Shown here: in pieces, positions 40,499 through 51,318 of the stretch
How positions within the stretch are numbered: the stretch's first letter is position 1
Layout of the letters: each line of letters begins with the position of its first letter
Source: Candidatus Latescibacterota bacterium
Lineage (GTDB): Bacteria > JAAXHH01
Direction of reading: 5' to 3'
Assembly: GCA_022822725.1 (NCBI GenBank)
Contig: JAJEAN010000007.1
Location: 2,367,045 to 2,431,044 of the forward strand
Length of the DNA stretch: 64,000 nt
Notes under the pieces: generated by a model
What the model saw: only the letters and a program-made list of their open reading frames with translations
What the model was told of the DNA's origin: nothing
The model's database searches: none
Translations under genes and position numbers: made by a program

Positions 40499-40525
40499 TT
40501 GACTATAGTTGTACAATTGTACAAT
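40499..40525 (+). promoter_or_regulatory. Promoter with a doubled palindromic operator upstream of PhyH
   Basis: TTGACT (40499-40504) and TACAAT (40520-40525) form a promoter with a short 15-bp spacer. Two adjoining copies of the palindrome TTGTACAA (40509-40516 and 40517-40524), together a perfect 16-bp dyad, cover the spacer and the -10. A regulator bound there would block RNA polymerase. Confidence 0.5.
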
Positions 40526-40600
40526 ACGTATTCTCATCTATACACATTCTCGTCAGGTACCCTCACTGACGACAACCGGAACCAGCACTCGGAACTCGCC

Positions 40601-41449
40601 ATGCATCCCACGCCCCTGACCGAATCCCAGCGCCGGTCCTTTGAAGAAGACGGTTACCTGATCGTCCCGGGCGCGCTGGATCCTGGCCAGCTCGAAACGC
40701 TGACGGAGACCGGCGACCGGCTCATGGAAGGGTTCGAGCACCCCGGCTACTACGCCCATCGCCGTCCCGGCCTCGTACAGGAGCAGCCCTTTCTTGACCT
40801 CGTGACGAATGAGCGCACGGTCCCGCGGATCGTGGCGCTGCTCGGTTTCAATATCCACATCACGAACACGGCGCTCATCTACAAGCACCCCGAGGCGCCG
40901 GGGGATACCGAGGAGGTCAACTGGCACCGCGATGTGGGCGTCTCACTGGACGTGGGCCACGTGGTGCTTCCCTTCGTCGGCCTGAAGATCGGTTATTGCC
41001 TGACGGATTTTCCCGAACCGGACACGGGGGCGACCATGTTCGTCCGGGGCAGCAACAACATGAAATCCGCGCTGCCGATACGAAAGGGCCGGATGCATCC
41101 TGACGAATACGTACAGCCGATCCTTCGGGCCGGCGACGCCTTCCTCTTCGAAAACCGCACCTATCACGCGCCTGCATTGAACTTCACGAGCCAGGTCGCC
41201 AAGGTCGTCATCTACGGCTACCACTACCGGTGGATCAAGCCGGACCATTACATGCGGTTCTACAACGGCGTGCCGCAGCCCGATGACGGCCTGCTCGCGG
41301 CCACCGACGACATCGGACGCCAATTGCTGGGCGCCACCGTGGACTCCGAGGGACGCGAGGCGCCCGACGGCATCGACTGGTCCATCCGGGAATGGGCCGA
41401 CCGGCACGGACTCGACGTGGCGCAGTACACGCATACCGTAGAAGTTTGA
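40601..41449 (+). CDS. Phytanoyl-CoA dioxygenase (PhyH) family protein
   Basis: I start at the ATG at 40601 (MHPTPLTESQRRSFEEDGY), giving 282 aa; the open frame reaches back to 40499 but runs through the promoter. The FEEDGYLIVPGALDPGQ N-terminus, the HRD metal pair in VNWHRDVGVSLD (about 104-115), GATMFVRGSNN and the distal His in RTYHAPALN (about 186-194) fit an active 2-oxoglutarate/Fe(II) dioxygenase. Substrate unknown. The creatininase-family gene follows 37 bp later and the P-loop gene after that, so the three may form one operon. Confidence 0.88.
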   Translation: MHPTPLTESQRRSFEEDGYLIVPGALDPGQLETLTETGDRLMEGFEHPGYYAHRRPGLVQEQPFLDLVTNERTVPRIVALLGFNIHITNTALIYKHPEAPGDTEEVNWHRDVGVSLDVGHVVLPFVGLKIGYCLTDFPEPDTGATMFVRGSNNMKSALPIRKGRMHPDEYVQPILRAGDAFLFENRTYHAPALNFTSQVAKVVIYGYHYRWIKPDHYMRFYNGVPQPDDGLLAATDDIGRQLLGATVDSEGREAPDGIDWSIREWADRHGLDVAQYTHTVEV

Positions 41450-41486
41450 CCGGAAGCCTGAACCAACCATTGACCCGCAGGAAACC

Positions 41487-42212
41487 ATGTACCTGAAGCA
41501 CATGCTTCCCCATCAACTGCGCCAGGCGGTGGAACCGGGCGACCCGCTGCTGGTTCCCGCCGGTTGCATCGAGACCCACGGCCCCCATATGGCCATCGGT
41601 CACGACACGATCATCGTGGAGGAGATCTGCGCGCGCGTGGCGAAGCACCGGGATGTGGTCATCTCACCGCCCTTCGATTTCGGCCCCACCGGTTACGCTC
41701 TGGGCGGTCCCGAGGACGGCACCATCGACCCCGATTACGATGCCTTCGGTTCTTTCGTAAAGTCCATTCTGCGCAATTTCCTGGAGATGGGCTTCGGGCG
41801 TATCTACGTAATCATCATGCACCAGGGCATGGAGGCCCCGCTGGCGCTGGCCTTCAAGAAGGCCGCGGCAGAACTGTCCTTCGAAATGGTCCTGGCCGAA
41901 GGCAGGCCGCGGGGATGGTGGGCAGACGCCAGGATGTCCAGGGAGGCCCGCCGGTTCGGCAGGATACAGGTCCACCCCATGATCCTTCCCGCCGCGTCCC
42001 CACCGGCCGGCGGCGACCACGCCGGGTACAACGAAACTTCCTTCCTGCTGGCCACGCGCCCGGAACTGGTGGACCAGGGCCGCCTCGACGAGAACGCGCC
42101 GTGGTACTGCCGGCAGGACGAAGACCGGAACAGCTGGACGGCCAACGCGGCGCATGGGGAAGCCATGGTCGCAGCGGTCGTAGACGCCTGGGTCGAGTTA
42201 TTGCAGAGCTGA
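41487..42212 (+). CDS. Creatininase family protein
   Basis: The 241-residue protein has the metal-binding pattern PAGCIETHGPHMAIGHDTII (about 21-40; Glu, His and Asp ligands), FGPTGYALGGPEDGTI and AGYNETS late in the chain. Family members are Zn/Mn amidohydrolases acting on creatinine, mycofactocin peptides or formamide intermediates; no mycofactocin genes are here, so the substrate is open. GGAAACC precedes the ATG. Sixteen base pairs containing its stop codon are duplicated immediately downstream. Confidence 0.88.
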   Translation: MYLKHMLPHQLRQAVEPGDPLLVPAGCIETHGPHMAIGHDTIIVEEICARVAKHRDVVISPPFDFGPTGYALGGPEDGTIDPDYDAFGSFVKSILRNFLEMGFGRIYVIIMHQGMEAPLALAFKKAAAELSFEMVLAEGRPRGWWADARMSREARRFGRIQVHPMILPAASPPAGGDHAGYNETSFLLATRPELVDQGRLDENAPWYCRQDEDRNSWTANAAHGEAMVAAVVDAWVELLQS

Positions 42213-42234
42213 ATTTTCGCAGGGCTGAATTACA
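42203..42234. repeat. 16-bp duplication across the creatininase-family stop codon
   Basis: GCAGAGCTGAATTTTC (42203-42218) is followed by GCAGGGCTGAATTACA (42219-42234). The stop TGA is 42210-42212, so the second copy repeats the stop. Confidence 0.7.
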
Positions 42235-42282
42235 ACAGAGATGCATATCGTTTCGAACCCATAACCGTGGAAGGAGCAACAC

Positions 42283-42993
42283 ATGCGGTCCATTTTCGTC
42301 GGTATCGAATACGCCGGCAAGTCCACTCTGATCGATCACCTGGACGCCTACTACCAGAAACGGCGGCGCCGGACCCATCTCGACGATCACTTCACCATCC
42401 CGGACGCTTCCCTGAGTCCCGTTTCCCGGGCGCAGTATATCCACTATCCCGACGACGTAAAGGAACGCATGCAGCGGATGCAGCTTCACTACCACGTGGA
42501 GGTCATTCGTAACTACCCCCACACGCTGATCGCTGGCTGGCACATCGAGGAGAAGATCTACTGCGACGTATACGGCAGCGTGGAGGGGAATCCCTACTAT
42601 CCCAACTACGTCGAACACAACCAGCGGCACTACGAGGTGATGGTCCTGGAAGCCCGGCTGCCCGACGTCGTGCTGATCCACCTCACCGCCGACGACGAGG
42701 CGATCCGCGAGCGCATGCGCACGGACCCCCACGAGTACCAGATCATCGACGAGAAGGACATTCCGGATCTCAAGAAACGCTTCGAGGACGAGGTCGACCA
42801 ATCGCTCCTGACGCGCAACGGCCACCTGGTCACGCTGGATACGACCGAAAAGTCACCCGCGGAGTCGTTGGACGAATTGCTGCTGAAGACCGATCCGATG
42901 GTGACCGACGGCGAACTGGCCATGCGGGCCATGCCGGTTCCCGACGGGGATTACGAGGTGCATTACGAGAACGGTGTAAGGAAGATGGTGTAG
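42283..42993 (+). CDS. P-loop kinase-like protein
   Basis: The 236-residue protein has a Walker A motif FVGIEYAGKST (about 5-15), a mid-chain HTLIAGWHIEEKIYCD and VVLIHLTADDEAIRERMRTD (about 126-145), which looks like strand 4 and the lid region of thymidylate-kinase-type nucleotide kinases. The C-terminal 40 residues are acidic. The substrate is unknown. AAGGAG lies 6 nt before the ATG. It follows the creatininase gene in the same direction. A G9CAG5 stretch begins just at its stop. Confidence 0.75.
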   Translation: MRSIFVGIEYAGKSTLIDHLDAYYQKRRRRTHLDDHFTIPDASLSPVSRAQYIHYPDDVKERMQRMQLHYHVEVIRNYPHTLIAGWHIEEKIYCDVYGSVEGNPYYPNYVEHNQRHYEVMVLEARLPDVVLIHLTADDEAIRERMRTDPHEYQIIDEKDIPDLKKRFEDEVDQSLLTRNGHLVTLDTTEKSPAESLDELLLKTDPMVTDGELAMRAMPVPDGDYEVHYENGVRKMV

Positions 42994-43061
42994 GGGGGGG
43001 GCAGGGGGAAGTGATAGGTTTTTAAGGTTTTTTGGATTTTTTTTAAGTCCATAACGAGATC

Positions 43062-43532
43062 GTGGGTTTCAATTCCGACGATTTAATTATGGACCAATTG
43101 ATTTTGATCATAGGGTCGGTATCGACTGCATGTCTCGTTCTCCTGGCAGTGGTTTCGCTGGCGTGGAAGTTTGCTCATAGGAATCAGGATGAGTTGAAGG
43201 CACTTCGTGAATCCGTTGATGAAATAAAAAGCGTACTGTTTGAAATCAACGGCAGGATAGTGACTGTTAATTTGACCGAAGAAGCCAGAACGCTTGTTTT
43301 GAAAGCCTTACATACCGGAGATGGACTGATACTGACCGGGCAGACGTTCTCGGGATGGTTCGTTCAGACTGGTCATTGGAATTCAGGTTTTATCAGAAGC
43401 AGCGAACAAAACGTTTGGAAAGATGCGTTGGAATCTCTCTGCCTGAACGAGCTTGTGGCGCTATCAGGTATCCAGCTGTATAGGCTGACATCCAAAGGCC
43501 GGCAGTTGGCTGATTCACTCAAATCCGAATAG
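43062..43532 (+). CDS. Uncharacterised membrane-anchored protein with coiled coil and winged-helix-like C-terminus
   Basis: The longest frame starts GTG at 43062; an ATG at 43089 (MDQLILIIGSVST) is more likely because the membrane helix (about 14-34) then sits at the N-terminus. A short coiled coil follows (RNQDELKALRESVDEIKSVLFEING). The C-terminal 80 residues include LNELVALSGIQLYRLTSKGRQLADSL, which resembles the end of a winged-helix fold. No family recognised. The region is visibly less G+C-rich and uses codons such as TTA, AGA and ATA more than neighbours, a hint of transfer. Confidence 0.6.
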   Translation: MGFNSDDLIMDQLILIIGSVSTACLVLLAVVSLAWKFAHRNQDELKALRESVDEIKSVLFEINGRIVTVNLTEEARTLVLKALHTGDGLILTGQTFSGWFVQTGHWNSGFIRSSEQNVWKDALESLCLNELVALSGIQLYRLTSKGRQLADSLKSE

Positions 43533-43556
43533 TACCTGTCCCTGAGGAACCGAACG

Positions 43557-43817
43557 TTGAGCGAGATATCCCGTGATAACTGGACCTTCGGCGCACAGAT
43601 CGTAACTGCCGTAGGGATGTTCATTGTAGCCCTGGGCATCTTGTTCATCGCGACGCTTACTTATCTGGATCGGGAAGATCAGGGATTCAGGAACGAGATT
43701 CGGACCGACCTTACAGAAATCCGTACCGCGATGAGAGACATGAACAATCGTCTCGACAACATCAACACCCGTCTCGGAAGGGTCGAGGGGTATCTGAGGG
43801 TATCCGGTGAAGAGTAG
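43557..43817 (+). CDS. Small membrane protein with C-terminal coiled coil
   Basis: The TTG start at 43557 has GAGGAA 8 nt upstream. The 86-residue product has one membrane helix (IVTAVGMFIVALGILFIATLTYL) and then heptad-like DLTEIRTAMRDMNNRLDNINTRLGRVEGYL, a coiled coil. The layout matches the preceding protein (helix then coiled coil), and the two genes are 24 bp apart, so a membrane-bound complex is possible (inference). Family unknown. Confidence 0.6.
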   Translation: MSEISRDNWTFGAQIVTAVGMFIVALGILFIATLTYLDREDQGFRNEIRTDLTEIRTAMRDMNNRLDNINTRLGRVEGYLRVSGEE

Positions 43818-43828
43818 CGCGGTTTAAT

Positions 43829-44968
43829 CTACGCTGCCAGGCCCTTGCCCTGGGCTTCCTTGATGCAATCGGCGAGGATGGGCACGCCTTCGCGGATATC
43901 CTCGATCGTGGGGAACCCAAATGCGATGCGGAGGTACGGGATGTCCTCGTTCGTCGCGCTGAAGGACTGACCGAGACTGAAGAAAACCCCCCGTCCGGCC
44001 GCCAGTTGCAGCGCTTTCCGCGTGTCCGTCGCCGCGGGGATCCTGACCCATACGAACATGCCGCCGGGCGGATCCGTCCACCACACCTCCTCGCCCAGAT
44101 CGCTGAAGTGGGTCGCCAGCGATTCGACCAGGGCGTCCTTGCGCGCCTTCATGACCTCGTTCACTTCGCGGATGTGGTCCCAGAGATGAACGCCCAGGTA
44201 TTCGGCCACGATCATGCTCGCCAGCGCGTTGGTCCCGCCGTCCATCTTGTTCGCCATGATCCGCTGCTGCAGCGCCTCCGGCGCGATGAAGTAGCCCTGC
44301 CGGACGCCCGGCCCGAGGATCTTGGAGAAAGAGCCGACGTACACGACCCGGTCGTCTTCGTCCAGGTGGTACAGGTTCGGCGGCACTGGATCGGACTGGA
44401 ACACGAGATCGGCGTAACAATGGTCGTCCACGACCAGCGTGTCGAACGCCCTGGCCAGTTCGAGGAGGCGCTTGCGACGCTCCAGGGGCAGGATGGAGCC
44501 CGTGGGATTGTGATGGGTGGGTATGGTGTAGATGAACTTCGGCGGCGTGCCCGCGTCGACGAGTCTTTTGAGCACGGTCTCCAGTGCATCCGGCACCAGG
44601 CCCTGGTCATCGATGGGCGCCGGCGCGATGCGCACCTGCCGGCTCCGGAACACGCTCAGTGAGCCGCCGTAGGAAAAGGACTCCGTGACGATCGTATCGC
44701 CTGGCGCTGCGAAGGCGTCCGTGGTCAACTGCAGCGCCTGCATGGATCCGGACGTCAGCACGATCTCCTCCAGGGGCACTGCCCGTCCCGTACCGCGTTC
44801 GTAACGCTCCGCCGCGATGGCCCGCAAGGGTTCGAAACCGCGGCCGTCCGGGTAATTCACCAGTTCCGCGCCTCGGGCCCTTATGACTTTCGCGGCGGCC
44901 TCTGCCAGCGCGTCCGAAGGAAAGGAAAGCGGATCGGGCCTTCCCGCGCCGAAATTGATCTCACGCAT
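43829..44968 (-). CDS. PLP-dependent aminotransferase, class I/II (MocR/2-aminoadipate type without DNA-binding domain)
   Basis: The 379-residue fold-type-I protein has NYPDGRGFEPLRAIAAERYERG, TSGSMQALQLTTDAF, YTIPTHHNPTGSILP, VVDDHCYADL and the Schiff-base lysine in GSFSKILGPGVRQGY (about 215-229). It transaminates an amino acid, probably aminoadipate-like or aromatic, with 2-oxoglutarate; the exact substrate is unknown. AGGAG lies upstream of the ATG. It is divergent from the ABC transporter, and both promoters face each other in the gap 44969-45173. Confidence 0.9.
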   Translation of the reverse strand: MREINFGAGRPDPLSFPSDALAEAAAKVIRARGAELVNYPDGRGFEPLRAIAAERYERGTGRAVPLEEIVLTSGSMQALQLTTDAFAAPGDTIVTESFSYGGSLSVFRSRQVRIAPAPIDDQGLVPDALETVLKRLVDAGTPPKFIYTIPTHHNPTGSILPLERRKRLLELARAFDTLVVDDHCYADLVFQSDPVPPNLYHLDEDDRVVYVGSFSKILGPGVRQGYFIAPEALQQRIMANKMDGGTNALASMIVAEYLGVHLWDHIREVNEVMKARKDALVESLATHFSDLGEEVWWTDPPGGMFVWVRIPAATDTRKALQLAAGRGVFFSLGQSFSATNEDIPYLRIAFGFPTIEDIREGVPILADCIKEAQGKGLAA

Positions 44969-45173: not shown

Positions 45174-47612
45174 ATGACTCCGTTCCGCTTTCTCCTGTTC
45201 TGCCTCGTTGTGTCGTGCCTGGCTGTTTCTACCGTCGCCCACGCACAGCAATCACCACCGCCGAACCCGGCACTGCCGAACCCGGCACCGCCGAACCAGG
45301 GCCAGTTCGGCCGTTCGACCGACGGCCCGGCACAGCCGCCGAACCAGACCCAGCCCCCGGTACGCGTCGAAGTTCCCCTCTTCGAGGGCGGCCAGGGCCT
45401 GGAGTTCTTCCTCGAGTGCGCCCGGACCTACGAACAGGAGCACGAAGGCGTGGTTATCGACCTGTACGGCGATCCCCGCATCCACGACAAGGTGCGGGTG
45501 CGCGTGCTGGAACGGTCCTTCCCCGAAGTCACCAACGCCCGCCTGAACTACTGGGCGCTCATCCGCAACGGCGACCTGCTGCCCCTGGACGAGTTCCTCG
45601 ACCAGCCCAACTGGGAAGGCGACCGCACCTGGCGGGAATCATTCCTGCCCGGGACGCTTTCTCAGTACACCCACGAGGGCAAGACCTACGGCGTCCCGCT
45701 CATGGCGTCGGCCTATGCCGTATGGTACAATAAGAACATGTTCGAGGAGCACGGCTGGGAACCGGCGACGACCTGGGAGGAGTTCTTCGCGCTTTGCGAG
45801 GAGATCAAGGCCGCCGGCATGTGGCCGCTCGCCTTCCAGGGCCGTTACCCGGGCTACGTGCAGGCCGTGATCGATCACGGGTACTATCACCGGGCCGGGC
45901 CGCAAGGATATTTCGACCAGAAGAACCTGGTGCCCGGCAGTTTCGACAATCCAGAGTTCACCGAGGCCTTGTCCGTCGCGCAGCGGATCGCGCTCAACTA
46001 CTTCCAGCCCGGCGCCATGGGCATGAGCCACACCGAATCCCAGCTCGAGTTCTTCCTGGGCCACACGGCAATGATCTTCTGCGGTTCGTGGCTCAAGAGC
46101 GAGATGCTGGGCAAGATACCGGAGGGTTTCCGCCTGGGGTCCTTCAACATCCCGGCGGCGCCGACGGGCAGGGCGGATCCCACGGCCGTCTACGGCGGTT
46201 CCGGGTACTATTTTGTCATGAAGGACAGTAAAAACCCGCTGGCCGGGGTCGAATTCCTGCGCTTCATGACTTCGCGGCGCATGGCCGGCCGGTTCGCCCG
46301 GATGCGCGACATCCCCGTGTCCGTGGCGGGGGTGTCCGAAGCGAACCTGACCGAGGATATGGCAGACCTGGCGGACATGCTGAAGAAAGCGGCCGTCACC
46401 TACGGCACGCCGCCCGGTGAAGGTTATCCGGCCATGTCGCAGTACTGGACCGACGCCCGGTTCAGGGTGATCACCGGACAGACCACGCCCGCCGAGGCCG
46501 CCGCGGAACTGGAAGCTGCCGCGGCCGTCGTTCGCAGGCAGTCCATCGCGCCGGACGAGATCAACATCCGGCACGTCTGGAAACCCGGCCTGCTGATCGG
46601 CCTCATGGCCCTGGCCGTGGGCTACTGGTCGGCCACCACCTACAGACGCTACCGGGACCGTCGCCGCGCGGGAATCAATACCTCGGAGGCCCGGCCCTTT
46701 CTTCGGCGGACCGACCGGATCATCCTCATCGCGCCGGCCCTGGTGCTGTACACGGTCTTCGTGATCATCCCGAGCGCGAAATCGTTCCTCTGGAGCCTGA
46801 ACGAGTGGGACGGACTGACCGACATGCGGTTCATCGGCCTGCTCAACTTCGGCCGCCTGCTCTTCGAAAGCGACGGATTCTGGATCGCGCTGAACAACAA
46901 CCTGTTCATCATGTTCGTCATCCCGCTGTTCGTCATCCCCCTCTCCCTCTTCCTGGCCGTGTGCATCAGCCGGCAGATCCGGGGATCGAAGTTCTTCCGC
47001 ATCGCCTTCTTCTTCCCGAACATCCTCGGAGCCGTGGCCGCGACACTCCTCTGGATGCACCTCTACAACCCCCAGGGCGGTCCGATCAACGCCGCGCTGG
47101 TGGGACTCGGTATGATCCTGTCCGCGGTGGGCTTCGAGAGCGCGGGAAGCTGGCTTCAGGCCATGGAAGGATTCGCCTGGCTGTCGCAGTCCAACCTGTA
47201 CTGGGCGCTGATCCCCATGTCCATCTGGGGCGCCTGCGGCTTCAACATGATCCTCTTCCTGGCCGCCATGGAGAGCATTCCCCAGAGCCTCTACGAAGCG
47301 GCGGACATCGACGGCGCCTCGTCGTGGCGGCAGTTCTGGACCATCACCCTGCCGCTGATCTGGGAGGTGCTGTCCATCTCCATCGTGTTCATGGTCATCG
47401 GCGGGATGAAGGCCTTCGAGACCATCTGGCTCCTGACCAACCAGACGCCCACCACGCAGGTGCACGTCATCGGCACGCTCATGGTGCAGGACATGTTCAC
47501 CGAGTTCAAGATCGGCGAGGCCACGGCCATCGCGGTGCTGCTCTTCATCATGGTCTTCTTCGGCACGGCCGCCACGCTGCGGCTCATGCGAAGGGAAACG
47601 GTGGAATTCTGA
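45174..47612 (+). CDS. Fused extracellular solute-binding protein and ABC permease (CUT1 sugar type)
   Basis: One uninterrupted frame of 812 residues joins two usually separate subunits. Residues 1-25 are a signal peptide ending AHAQ; about 28-60 is a Pro/Asn linker with 15-bp repeats. About 62-455 is a type-1 sugar-binding protein (VEVPLFEGGQGLEFFLECA, YGVPLMASAYAVWYNKNMFEEHGWEPATTWEEFFALC). A membrane helix at about 469-487 leads into a basic cytoplasmic stretch. From about 511 there is a MalF/UgpA-like permease with the EAA loop EAADIDGASSWRQFWTITLP (about 708). The MalG-like partner follows with a 1-nt overlap. No ATPase gene is present, so a shared MsmK/UgpC-type ATPase is likely. Substrate unknown. 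Confidence 0.9.
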   Translation: MTPFRFLLFCLVVSCLAVSTVAHAQQSPPPNPALPNPAPPNQGQFGRSTDGPAQPPNQTQPPVRVEVPLFEGGQGLEFFLECARTYEQEHEGVVIDLYGDPRIHDKVRVRVLERSFPEVTNARLNYWALIRNGDLLPLDEFLDQPNWEGDRTWRESFLPGTLSQYTHEGKTYGVPLMASAYAVWYNKNMFEEHGWEPATTWEEFFALCEEIKAAGMWPLAFQGRYPGYVQAVIDHGYYHRAGPQGYFDQKNLVPGSFDNPEFTEALSVAQRIALNYFQPGAMGMSHTESQLEFFLGHTAMIFCGSWLKSEMLGKIPEGFRLGSFNIPAAPTGRADPTAVYGGSGYYFVMKDSKNPLAGVEFLRFMTSRRMAGRFARMRDIPVSVAGVSEANLTEDMADLADMLKKAAVTYGTPPGEGYPAMSQYWTDARFRVITGQTTPAEAAAELEAAAAVVRRQSIAPDEINIRHVWKPGLLIGLMALAVGYWSATTYRRYRDRRRAGINTSEARPFLRRTDRIILIAPALVLYTVFVIIPSAKSFLWSLNEWDGLTDMRFIGLLNFGRLLFESDGFWIALNNNLFIMFVIPLFVIPLSLFLAVCISRQIRGSKFFRIAFFFPNILGAVAATLLWMHLYNPQGGPINAALVGLGMILSAVGFESAGSWLQAMEGFAWLSQSNLYWALIPMSIWGACGFNMILFLAAMESIPQSLYEAADIDGASSWRQFWTITLPLIWEVLSISIVFMVIGGMKAFETIWLLTNQTPTTQVHVIGTLMVQDMFTEFKIGEATAIAVLLFIMVFFGTAATLRLMRRETVEF

Positions 47613-48460
47613 TGAAGCGGACAACCACCTGGAATCTCGTGATCTACCCGGTCCTGCTCGGCTACCTGGTCATCGTGGTCTACCCGATGGCCTGGCTGCT
47701 GTACACGTCGCTCAAGACGGACCGGGAGATCTTCCTGGCGCCTTTCACGCTGCCGGATTGGGCCGACCTGCAGTGGATCAATTTCTCGCGGGCTTGGACG
47801 GTGGGACAGTTCGGGGATTACTTCCTGAACAGCGCGGTGCTTACCATCCTGACGGTGATCCTGTCGCTGCTCTTCGCGGCCATGGCGGCCTATGCCCTCT
47901 CGCGGTTCCGCTTCTTCGGGGCGCGGCCCCTGTTCTTCTTCTTCCTGGCCGGCCTTATGGTGCCGCTGCAACTGGCCATCGTGCCCCTCTTCTTCCAGAT
48001 GAAGGACCTGATGCTGCTCAACTCCCGGCTTGGGCTGCTACTCGTTTACATCGCCTTCGGCATGCCCTTCGCCATCTTCATCCTGGCGGGCTTCTTCAAG
48101 TCGCTGCCTTCCGGACTCCACGAGTCGGCCCTGATGGACGGCGCCGGCGAACTGCGGGCCTTCTGGCACATCATGCTTCCCCTGGCCAAGCCCGCCCTGG
48201 TCACCGTCGGCATCTTCGCCTTCCTCGGCACCTGGAACGAGTTCTTCATGGCCTTCATGTTCCTGTCGGGCGAGAACGCCGAAAGCCTGCGCACCCTTCC
48301 CCTCGGCCTGGCCAACATCACCATCGTCAGCCAGTACCGCAGCGACTGGGGCATGGCCTTCGCCGGCCTGGTGCTCATGATGCTGCCCACCATGGCGGTC
48401 TACGCACTGCTCCAGCGACAGGTGACGAAGGGTATTACGGTGGGGGCGCTCAAGGGTTGA
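47612..48460 (+). CDS. Carbohydrate ABC transporter permease (MalG/UgpE-like)
   Basis: The ATG at 47612 overlaps the fusion gene stop (TGATG). The 282-residue protein has six membrane helices and the EAA loop ESALMDGAGELRAFWHIMLPLAKPA (about 171-195), where it would contact the ATPase. PVILGYLVIVVYPMAWLLYTSLK and LSRFRFFGARPLFFFFLAGLMVPLQ are typical of CUT1 second permeases. It pairs with the permease half of the preceding fusion. Confidence 0.93.
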   Translation: MKRTTTWNLVIYPVLLGYLVIVVYPMAWLLYTSLKTDREIFLAPFTLPDWADLQWINFSRAWTVGQFGDYFLNSAVLTILTVILSLLFAAMAAYALSRFRFFGARPLFFFFLAGLMVPLQLAIVPLFFQMKDLMLLNSRLGLLLVYIAFGMPFAIFILAGFFKSLPSGLHESALMDGAGELRAFWHIMLPLAKPALVTVGIFAFLGTWNEFFMAFMFLSGENAESLRTLPLGLANITIVSQYRSDWGMAFAGLVLMMLPTMAVYALLQRQVTKGITVGALKG

Positions 48461-49365: not shown

Positions 49366-50916
49366 CTAGTCGTCGTCCTCATCGTCGTCGTCTTCATCGT
49401 CGTCGTCATCATCGTCGTCATTTTCATCGTCATCGTCGTCTTCATCGCCCTCATCGTCCTCGTCACCCTCATCGCCCTCATCGTCTTCGTCGCCTTCGTC
49501 GTTCTCATCGCCCTCATCGTCTTCGTCGCCTTCGTCGTTCTCATCGCCCTCGTCGTCCTCATCACCTTCGTCGTCTTCATCGCCCTCGTCGTCCTCATCG
49601 TCTTCATCGCCTTCGTCGTCTTCGTCACCCTCATCGTCTTCGTCGCCTTCATCGTCCTCATCGCCCTCGTCGTTCTCATCGCCTTCGTCGTCTTCATCGC
49701 CCTCGTCGTTCTCATCACCTTCGTCGTCTTCGTCGTCCTCATCGCCCTCATCGTCTTCATCACCTTCGTCGTCCTCGTCGCCCTCATCGTTCTCATCGCC
49801 TTCGTCGCCTTCGTCGCCGTCTACGTCTTCGTCACCTTCATCGCCTTCGTCGCCTTCGTCGTTCTCATCGTCCTCGTCGCCCTCATCGTCTTCGTCGCCC
49901 TCATCGTCCTCATCACCTTCGTCATTCTCATCACCCTCGTCGTTCTCATCGTCCTCGTCGCCCTCATCGCCTTCGTCGCCTTCGTCACCCTCGTCACCGT
50001 CTACGTCTTCGTCGCCCTCGTCACCTTCGTCTCCCTCGTCACCCTCATCGTCTTCATCACCCTCATCGTCCTCATCGCCTTCGTCGTTCTCATCGCCCTC
50101 ATCGTCCTCGTCGCCCTCATCGTCCTCATCGCCTTCGTCGTCCTCGTCGTCCTCGTCGTTCTCGTCCCCTTCGTCCCCTTCGTCGTCCTCATCGTCCTCG
50201 TCACCCTCATTGCCCTCGTCGTCTACGCCTTCGTCGCCTTCGTCCCCTTCGTCGTCCTCGTCCCCTTCATCCCCTTCGTCATCCTCGTCCCCTTCGTCAT
50301 CCTCGTCCCCTTCGTCGCCTTCGTCGTCCTCGTTACCTTCGTCGTTCTCGTCGCCTTCGTCGTCCTCGTCACCGTCTACGCCATCGTCTTCGTCGCCCTC
50401 GTCACCCTCGTCACCTTCGTCGCCCTCGTCTCCTTCGTCGTCCTCGTCACCCTCGTCGCCTTCGTCGCCTTCGTCGTTCTCGTCGTCTTCGTCACCCTCG
50501 TTACCGTCGTTCGCATACCTTTCCAGATTCACGATCGAGGACGGGTCTGACGGTTCGACATCATCCCCGACTCCGTCACCGCTTGTGCCTTGATCAGCAT
50601 CCGTGTCACCTGCGCTACCGTCACCCGCGCTACCGTCACCCGCGCTACCATCCCCTTCTCCATTCCCCTCGCCGTCCCCACTGCCGCTTGTGCCTTGACC
50701 GTCATTCGTGTCACTTGCGTCGTCATCTCCTTCTCCGTCCCCGCCGCCGTCTCCGTTTCCGCTCTGGCCAGTCCCTACCTGGTTGATGGTCTGGGATGTA
50801 TTTGAAACCAGCGGATTCTGACCGCTATCGCCTCTGCAACTCATGATCATCATCAAGGCGGCAACTGCGATCTGCAGGTTTCTTACCCAGTTGTATACGA
50901 TACGGTAAACGGCCAT
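49366..50916 (-). CDS. Extremely acidic Gly/Asp/Glu repeat lipoprotein
   Basis: The ATG at 50916 (MAVYRIVYNWVRNLQIAV) has AGAGGTGA 6 nt upstream. The 516-residue product opens with a signal peptide ending in a lipobox-like IMSC. A Gly/Ser/Asp linker follows with three GDGSA units (about 90-105), then a short ordinary segment (DPSSIVNLERYAN). From about residue 137 to the end it uses almost only D, E and G with scattered N and V, mostly hexapeptides of EGDEDD type, ending in a D-only run. I know no family for it. If exported and lipid-anchored it would be a polyanion on the membrane surface, plausibly binding divalent cations (inference). The opposite strand is open too, but its Arg/His/Pro frame has no start context. 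Confidence 0.7.
   Translation of the reverse strand: MAVYRIVYNWVRNLQIAVAALMMIMSCRGDSGQNPLVSNTSQTINQVGTGQSGNGDGGGDGEGDDDASDTNDGQGTSGSGDGEGNGEGDGSAGDGSAGDGSAGDTDADQGTSGDGVGDDVEPSDPSSIVNLERYANDGNEGDEDDENDEGDEGDEGDEDDEGDEGDEGDEGDEGDEDDGVDGDEDDEGDENDEGNEDDEGDEGDEDDEGDEDDEGDEGDEDDEGDEGDEGVDDEGNEGDEDDEDDEGDEGDENDEDDEDDEGDEDDEGDEDDEGDENDEGDEDDEGDEDDEGDEGDEGDEGDEDVDGDEGDEGDEGDEGDEDDENDEGDENDEGDEDDEGDEDDEGDEDDENDEGDEGDEGDEDVDGDEGDEGDENDEGDEDDEGDEDDEGDEDDEDDEGDENDEGDEDDEGDENDEGDEDDEGDEDDEGDEDDEGDEDDEDDEGDEDDEGDEDDEGDENDEGDEDDEGDENDEGDEDDEGDEGDEDDEGDEDDDDDENDDDDDDDDEDDDDEDDD
49369..50508. repeat. About 1.1 kb of imperfect GAN-GAN-GGN repeats (18-bp and 9-bp periods)
   Basis: On the plus strand the tract is built of TCGTCNTCNTCNCC-type units with C/T wobble at third positions. 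The third-position variation keeps the amino acids D/E/G, so the reading frame on the minus strand appears selected rather than neutral. Confidence 0.9.
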
Positions 50917-51318
50917 GGGATCACCTCTTGCCACTCATCAATCGGCGAGGTGAGAAAGGGAGGTATTGGGAAGCAAGATTACATGCGGATTACTTTAAAA
51001 CTAACACATTTATGTATGGATAAAAGGGAAATTCCTGGAAAACGTCTCAAAGTCGGCTTGTTGTTCGAAGAATGCTCGAAAACCAAGGCGTTTTCATGCA
51101 ATCCGACGGACATGAGTGTGGAAGACCGTTTGCCCCGGGGTGTGGAAAACCCTCTGCACCGGGATGTGGGATCGCGCTGGATTCGATACAAGGGGACGAA
51201 TGCCAATGCCCGGACTTTGACGACTTGACGAACAGTCAGGTCAATTCGACGAACAAGCGGGGCTATTGGAGAAACAACTGGGGCTGTTGGATAATGCGGG
51301 CCTTCTACGCCTGGGGTC
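50917..51318. other. 402-bp intergenic region without a supported gene
   Basis: Lower G+C than its surroundings. It holds the upstream sequence of the acidic lipoprotein gene and short imperfect repeats: GTGTGGAAGACC and GTGTGGAAAACC near 51118-51150, and GGGGCTATTGGAGAAACAAC and GGGGCTGTTGG near 51258-51292. Frames crossing it on either strand lack ribosome sites and protein-like composition. Confidence 0.6.

Follow-up and report, generated by a model that had tools for sequence, protein, structure and literature searches.

The window, i.e. the whole stretch of 64,000 nucleotides that was analysed, contains a single open frame of 812 codons at 45174-47612 (+), whose translation runs without an internal stop from a signal peptide through a substrate-binding domain and a further helix into a MalF-type permease. 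The features of this frame and of the gene that overlaps its end are as follows.

45174..45245, forward strand: Sec-type signal peptide, residues ~1-24, with likely cleavage near AHA/Q (translation; helix at residues 2-23 in the model)
45363..46538, forward strand: substrate-binding domain SBP_bac_1, residues 64-455 (Pfam, NgcE model and fold matches)
46569..46667, forward strand: tether helix, residues 466-498, with its Arg-rich end towards the permease (AlphaFold2 model, alignment)
46704..47609, forward strand: MalF-type permease domain, residues 511-812 (Pfam, UgpA model)
47295..47354, forward strand: EAA loop, residues 708-727, EAADIDGASSWRQFWTITLP (pattern match)
47612..48460, forward strand: MalG-type permease; its ATG start overlaps the fused gene's TGA stop (TGATG)

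Domain content and surroundings of the fused gene

With E-values up to 0.001, the Pfam scan of the 812-aa protein returned SBP_bac_1, SBP_bac_8 and BPD_transp_1 only. The SBP_bac_1 match (residues 86-368, E 2.8e-26, 93.7 bits versus a cut-off of 26) and the BPD_transp_1 match (residues 589-795, E 3.8e-08) lie in the same frame, and the UgpA model matched residues 505-806 at a score below its cut-off. The EAA loop fits exactly, at residues 708-727, the consensus pattern EAA-x3-G-x9-I-x-LP, while the MalG-type permease carries an EAA-like loop (ESALMDGAGELRAFWHIMLP) that reads ESA instead of EAA. A first-pass annotation had described the order signal peptide, SBP_bac_1, helix and MalF-type permease with EAA loop, and the single frame, the Pfam matches and the pattern match bear this out; its placement of a MalG-type permease directly behind the fused gene was likewise confirmed by the TGATG overlap at 47612, and its assignment to the CUT1 sugar importers agrees with the presence of an SBP_bac_1 domain together with two distinct permease subunits with EAA-type loops. 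An AlphaFold2 model built from 23 family members (mean pLDDT 61) predicted the binding domain mostly well, with the exception of residues 100-125, and the permease part with a confidence too low for docking to be read from the model.

The signal peptide is followed by a linker rich in Pro, Asn and Gln, the length of which differs among relatives in the alignment. Inspection by eye of the N-termini of 27 fused frames revealed that AxA-type ends are common and that a lipobox Cys is not conserved; on this basis the family appears to start with an ordinary Sec-type signal lacking a conserved lipobox. A lipoprotein reading was considered and abandoned: the lipobox-like VVSC of the 812-aa protein also occurs in one relative (L037) but is unconserved among the 27 N-termini.

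Upstream of the importer, genes for a PhyH dioxygenase, a creatininase-family protein and an aminotransferase occupy 40499-44968 and are shared, among 24 loci compared, only with loci of the same genus. On the other side, 49366-50934 (-) holds a 522-aa frame that consists largely of GDEDDEG-type acidic repeats.

Conservation of the fusion and its tether

A scan of named bacterial genomes identified 23 loci of this family, 22 of which encode a single frame across the junction, while the 23rd (L043, G008:C53) is the copy of G008, which a frame change near residue 618, within the permease part, interrupts. The titles of these loci, which are labels on metagenome bins and may err, read Latescibacterota/Latescibacteria in nine cases and Gemmatimonadetes or a related name in ten, with Zixiibacteriota, Armatimonadota, Phycisphaeraceae and 'uncultured bacterium' accounting for one each. 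One frame (L055) begins at residue 124 because of a contig end. Within the genus the whole protein is encoded in a single frame in 10 of 12 genomes, including the one analysed here, and no copy was found in the 87% complete genome G007; of two other genomes of the family one carries a copy (G013) and one does not (G001). Across the phylum the gene is present in 13 of 16 genomes, as a frame that is single across the junction in 12 (a contig end truncates one of these) and broken in one. In the phylum of G021, 11 of 64 genomes carry 13 fused single-frame genes; in that of G023, where scoring covered the best two candidates per genome, two of 392 genomes carry one. After removal of overlaps between these sets, 28 distinct copies with an open junction were counted, the 812-aa gene included, mostly from bins labelled Latescibacterota or Gemmatimonadetes and a few from other phyla; the lowest identity among them was 52-54% (G313). 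By the first-pass annotation, a stop or frameshift between about 46540 and 46720 in independent reads, or two separate genes in sister genomes, would have refuted the fusion. The junction contains no stop in any of the 28 copies, and a split into two genes at this locus was seen in none of the genomes of the genus or family.

Since a binding protein has its C-terminus outside and MalF its N-terminus inside, joining the two requires an odd number of added helices. The extra membrane helix proposed earlier is supported by a continuous helix that AlphaFold2 predicted at residues 466-498, with a low pLDDT of about 40-60. At a Kyte-Doolittle threshold of 1.2, moreover, each of the 39 fused MalF rows, a set that includes near copies, has a hydrophobic 19-mer before the permease. 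The hydrophobicity of the tether is weak in the 812-aa protein, where a threshold of 1.6 failed to pick it, and ~1.3 in the nearest relatives; at 1.6 the helix was picked in each of 17 listed fused proteins from other families. Among 58 separate MalF frames, the nearest Met lies no more than 18 aa from the permease domain in 41 and at 60 aa in one, and 16 have no Met ahead of the domain within 80 aa. An RHxWKP...LL motif is conserved at the entry to the tether (alignment A1, which excluded the frameshifted L043), and in the 812-aa protein the exit is rich in Arg.

With a mean identity to the 812-aa protein of 51%, residues 456-512 form the least conserved region compared, the two domains reaching 72% and 82% and residues 466-490 of the tether 70%. 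In six of 22 possible comparisons dN/dS was 0.25-0.53 for residues 456-512 and 0.17-0.36 for residues 466-490, short stretches with few changes, and 0.07-0.11 for the two domains. These values mark the junction as translated and under purifying selection, more loosely so than the domains.

A proposed importer with one tethered binding domain

We read the locus as encoding a CUT1 oligosaccharide importer, possibly of the amino-sugar/chitin type, in which the binding protein would be the N-terminal domain of MalF and each complex would hold one tethered domain; judged from sequence, we place the probability of this reading at roughly 0.8. The Sec signal would deliver the binding domain to the periplasm, the one added membrane helix would return the chain to the cytoplasm, and the MalF part would keep its normal topology. 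Assembly with MalG and with a MalK-type ATPase from another locus would give a complex that resembles MalFGK2 and carries exactly one tethered binding domain, which we infer to catch the sugar, close, dock in cis on its own pore and deliver its load without leaving. The 1:1 ratio of binding domain to transporter that the earlier annotation had drawn from the fusion would indeed follow from such a tether. Three Omp85 matches in the genome make it probable that the cell is diderm and has a periplasm.

A MalG gene is present in 21 of the 23 family loci, directly downstream of the fused gene in 20 and ~1.4 kb further on in L055. No MalK-like match was found in the available flanks of these 23 loci, several of which are short. 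The genome itself encodes two MalK-type ATPases with an OB fold (OB_MalK matches): the second belongs to the cluster of another transporter, while for the other (G000:C4) no permease was seen in the surrounding 10 kb, and the latter ATPase is the likely partner of the fused importer. A MalK near L042 was rejected as the cognate ATPase, with a match of 28% and no OB/TOBE domain in Pfam.

The two remaining family members, L045:5932-8235 and L046:420-2723, are extra fused copies with no MalG found nearby. The L045 copy adjoins genes for a PAS histidine kinase and a sigma-54 response regulator, the same genes cluster in L046, and a MalG-like tail (KGITVG) can be read in frame immediately upstream of the copies, as would be left by a tandem duplication with loss.

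For the substrate, an amino-sugar oligosaccharide is our best guess and not more, drawn from fold matches, the NgcE match and neighbouring genes. The best NCBIfam match of the binding domain was NgcE (TIGR03851, residues 63-455, E 2.6e-64), and since its score of 217.8 bits falls far below the equivalog cut-off of 399.65 the substrate is unsure. The closest folds, at ~20% identity, belong to proteins that bind fucosylated lacto-N-biose, xylo-oligosaccharides or chitin oligosaccharides, and in a separate-gene relative (L185) a GH20 hexosaminidase is encoded two genes after the binding protein. In one subclade, upstream genes common to five to eight loci encode a Gfo/Idh/MocA oxidoreductase and a sugar-isomerase-like TIM barrel, accompanied by a lactamase-cupin protein and an isochorismatase-like protein (L053 scanned); the oxidoreductase, TIM barrel and lactamase-cupin neighbours would fit other sugars too.

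Three other explanations of the frame were weighed against a tethered importer. An assembly or sequencing artefact might be suspected given that most of the relatives come from metagenome bins and that G008 has a frame break in the fused gene, but the 28 distinct junction-open copies come from many assemblies and selection acts across the junction, which leaves this explanation a negligible probability. The fused precursor might instead be cut after export to yield a free binding protein, so that the fusion would merely co-express two subunits. The low conservation of residues 456-512 relative to the domains would suit such a cleavage; the better conservation of the RHxWKP stretch and the helix (70% for residues 466-490) speaks against it, as does the transport competence of a fused MalE-MalF (PMC7756565), and we regard cleavage as improbable. 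A role in sugar sensing or regulation, and not in transport, is suggested by L045 and L046, which lack a nearby MalG and lie next to genes for a PAS histidine kinase and a sigma-54 response regulator. However, MalG accompanies the gene in nearly all family loci and in the window itself, the EAA loop is intact, and the genomes of L045 and L046 also carry a fused copy with MalG, so that a sensor role appears very unlikely. The fusion is real, conserved and probably functional.

Recurrence, origin and known systems

Fusions of this kind account for one of ten SBP_bac_1 rows in the genome analysed here, one of 11 in G001, four of 19 in G016, one of 14 in G021 and three of 15 in G022, while in the planctomycete G023 (L081-L091, L057) 12 of 22 distinct SBP_bac_1 frames (24 rows) are fused to a permease. 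Among 19 fused candidates from outside the family, three of which were drawn from beyond these rows, 18 showed both domains in Pfam at an E-value of 0.001 or better; in L085 Pfam matched the binding part only and the permease part was seen by HMM, and in L088 and L100 the permease match was slightly below the Pfam cut-off. Twelve further planctomycete genomes (42 SBP_bac_1 rows) yielded at least five fusions, in four genomes, among 30 loci checked; long frames also exist outside these loci (e.g. G027:C89, 714 aa; G032:C1:531603, 680 aa). A habit common to planctomycetes was dismissed on the five fusions confirmed, among the 30 loci checked, in four of the 12 genomes. In a second fused family (L023:2397-3818, L075:2-1483, L078:3-1112) the MalG-type partner seems, by eye, to carry ~250 inserted residues behind its first helix.

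Relatives with separate genes, in contrast to the fused gene, encode binding protein, MalF and MalG individually. In L184, from a genome in the phylum of G021, the three adjoin in the order of the fused operon and are ~33% identical to the 812-aa protein over both of its parts, whereas L185 and L098/L099 have the order MalF-MalG-binding protein. Likeness across these relatives was 26-35% for the binding protein, about 33-40% for MalF and 46-51% for MalG. In a tree of 73 MalF domains they branch next to the fused family, with support at the forks joining it of 98/89 for L185, 94/41 for L184 and 94/93 for L073/L074 (the MalF genes of L098/L099). Among the sampled MalF domains the fused proteins occupy four separate clades, and well-supported branches force four changes in the 73-row tree and three in the 78-row tree. 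The latter, built first, comprised 97 MalF rows less 20 near copies plus the 812-aa protein; for the 73-row tree 19 near copies and nine long-branch rows were excluded and L184, L185, L186 and the 812-aa protein were added. Of two capped lists used in the analysis, one gave part of the permease matches and the other 60 of 510 entries. A single clade for all fusions was rejected by an AU test (lnL 217 lower, p 4e-117), which leans on the model, includes long branches and does not tell gains from losses.

The rarity that had been attributed to such a tether is contradicted by these four clades and by the 12 of 22 fused frames of G023. We tentatively suggest, with doubt still prevailing, that fusion to MalF via an added helix has recurred by convergence. 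It would be represented by four clades, from bins of the Latescibacterota type, planctomycetes and armatimonads, would account in at least one planctomycete for about half of the SBP_bac_1 importers, and would perhaps be favoured where free binding proteins are wasteful because the periplasm is large or dilute. As few further planctomycete fusions were confirmed, the idea of a large periplasm remains a guess.

The N-acetylglucosamine/diacetylchitobiose importers of the NgcE type, which provided the best NCBIfam match of the binding domain at a score under the equivalog cut-off, are encoded by separate genes. In OpuA the binding domains are covalently linked to the membrane domain. The same arrangement is described for GlnPQ (PMC8025302). 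These are importers of amino acids or glycine betaine, whereas the 812-aa protein combines SBP_bac_1 with a MalF-type permease, and no binding domain of the amino-acid or glycine-betaine type was present in its Pfam scan at E-values up to 0.001.

In diderms, free periplasmic binding proteins are usual. The earlier statement that separate lipoproteins are the rule holds for Gram-positives, as the literature also states; the present genome is probably diderm by its Omp85 matches, and the fused family has, by eye, no conserved lipobox. In well-studied importers the binding protein is free or lipid-anchored and greatly outnumbers the transporter, with an excess of 30-50-fold for the maltose importer of E. 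coli (PMC9045158). The fused families fix the ratio at one per transporter and, if they arose more than once, would constitute a natural experiment on the purpose of that excess. Fused members and the separate-gene relatives L184 and L185 (about 33-35% identical) would permit affinity, rate and cost to be compared directly between tethered and untethered forms.

A published importer in which MalE is fused to MalF reportedly comes from Bdellovibrio bacteriovorus, and the same study may have surveyed such fusions as well. It is described as a maltose/maltodextrin importer with a single binding domain, likewise fused to the MalF subunit (Licht et al. 2019, Res Microbiol 170:1-12), so that the novelty implied for a tethered CUT1 importer in the first-pass annotation does not stand. 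The 812-aa protein probably serves another oligosaccharide, and its likeness to that importer is one of architecture. The fused importer adds a conserved example to the kind published in 2019, and the recurrence of such fusions with a similar helix is the interesting part.
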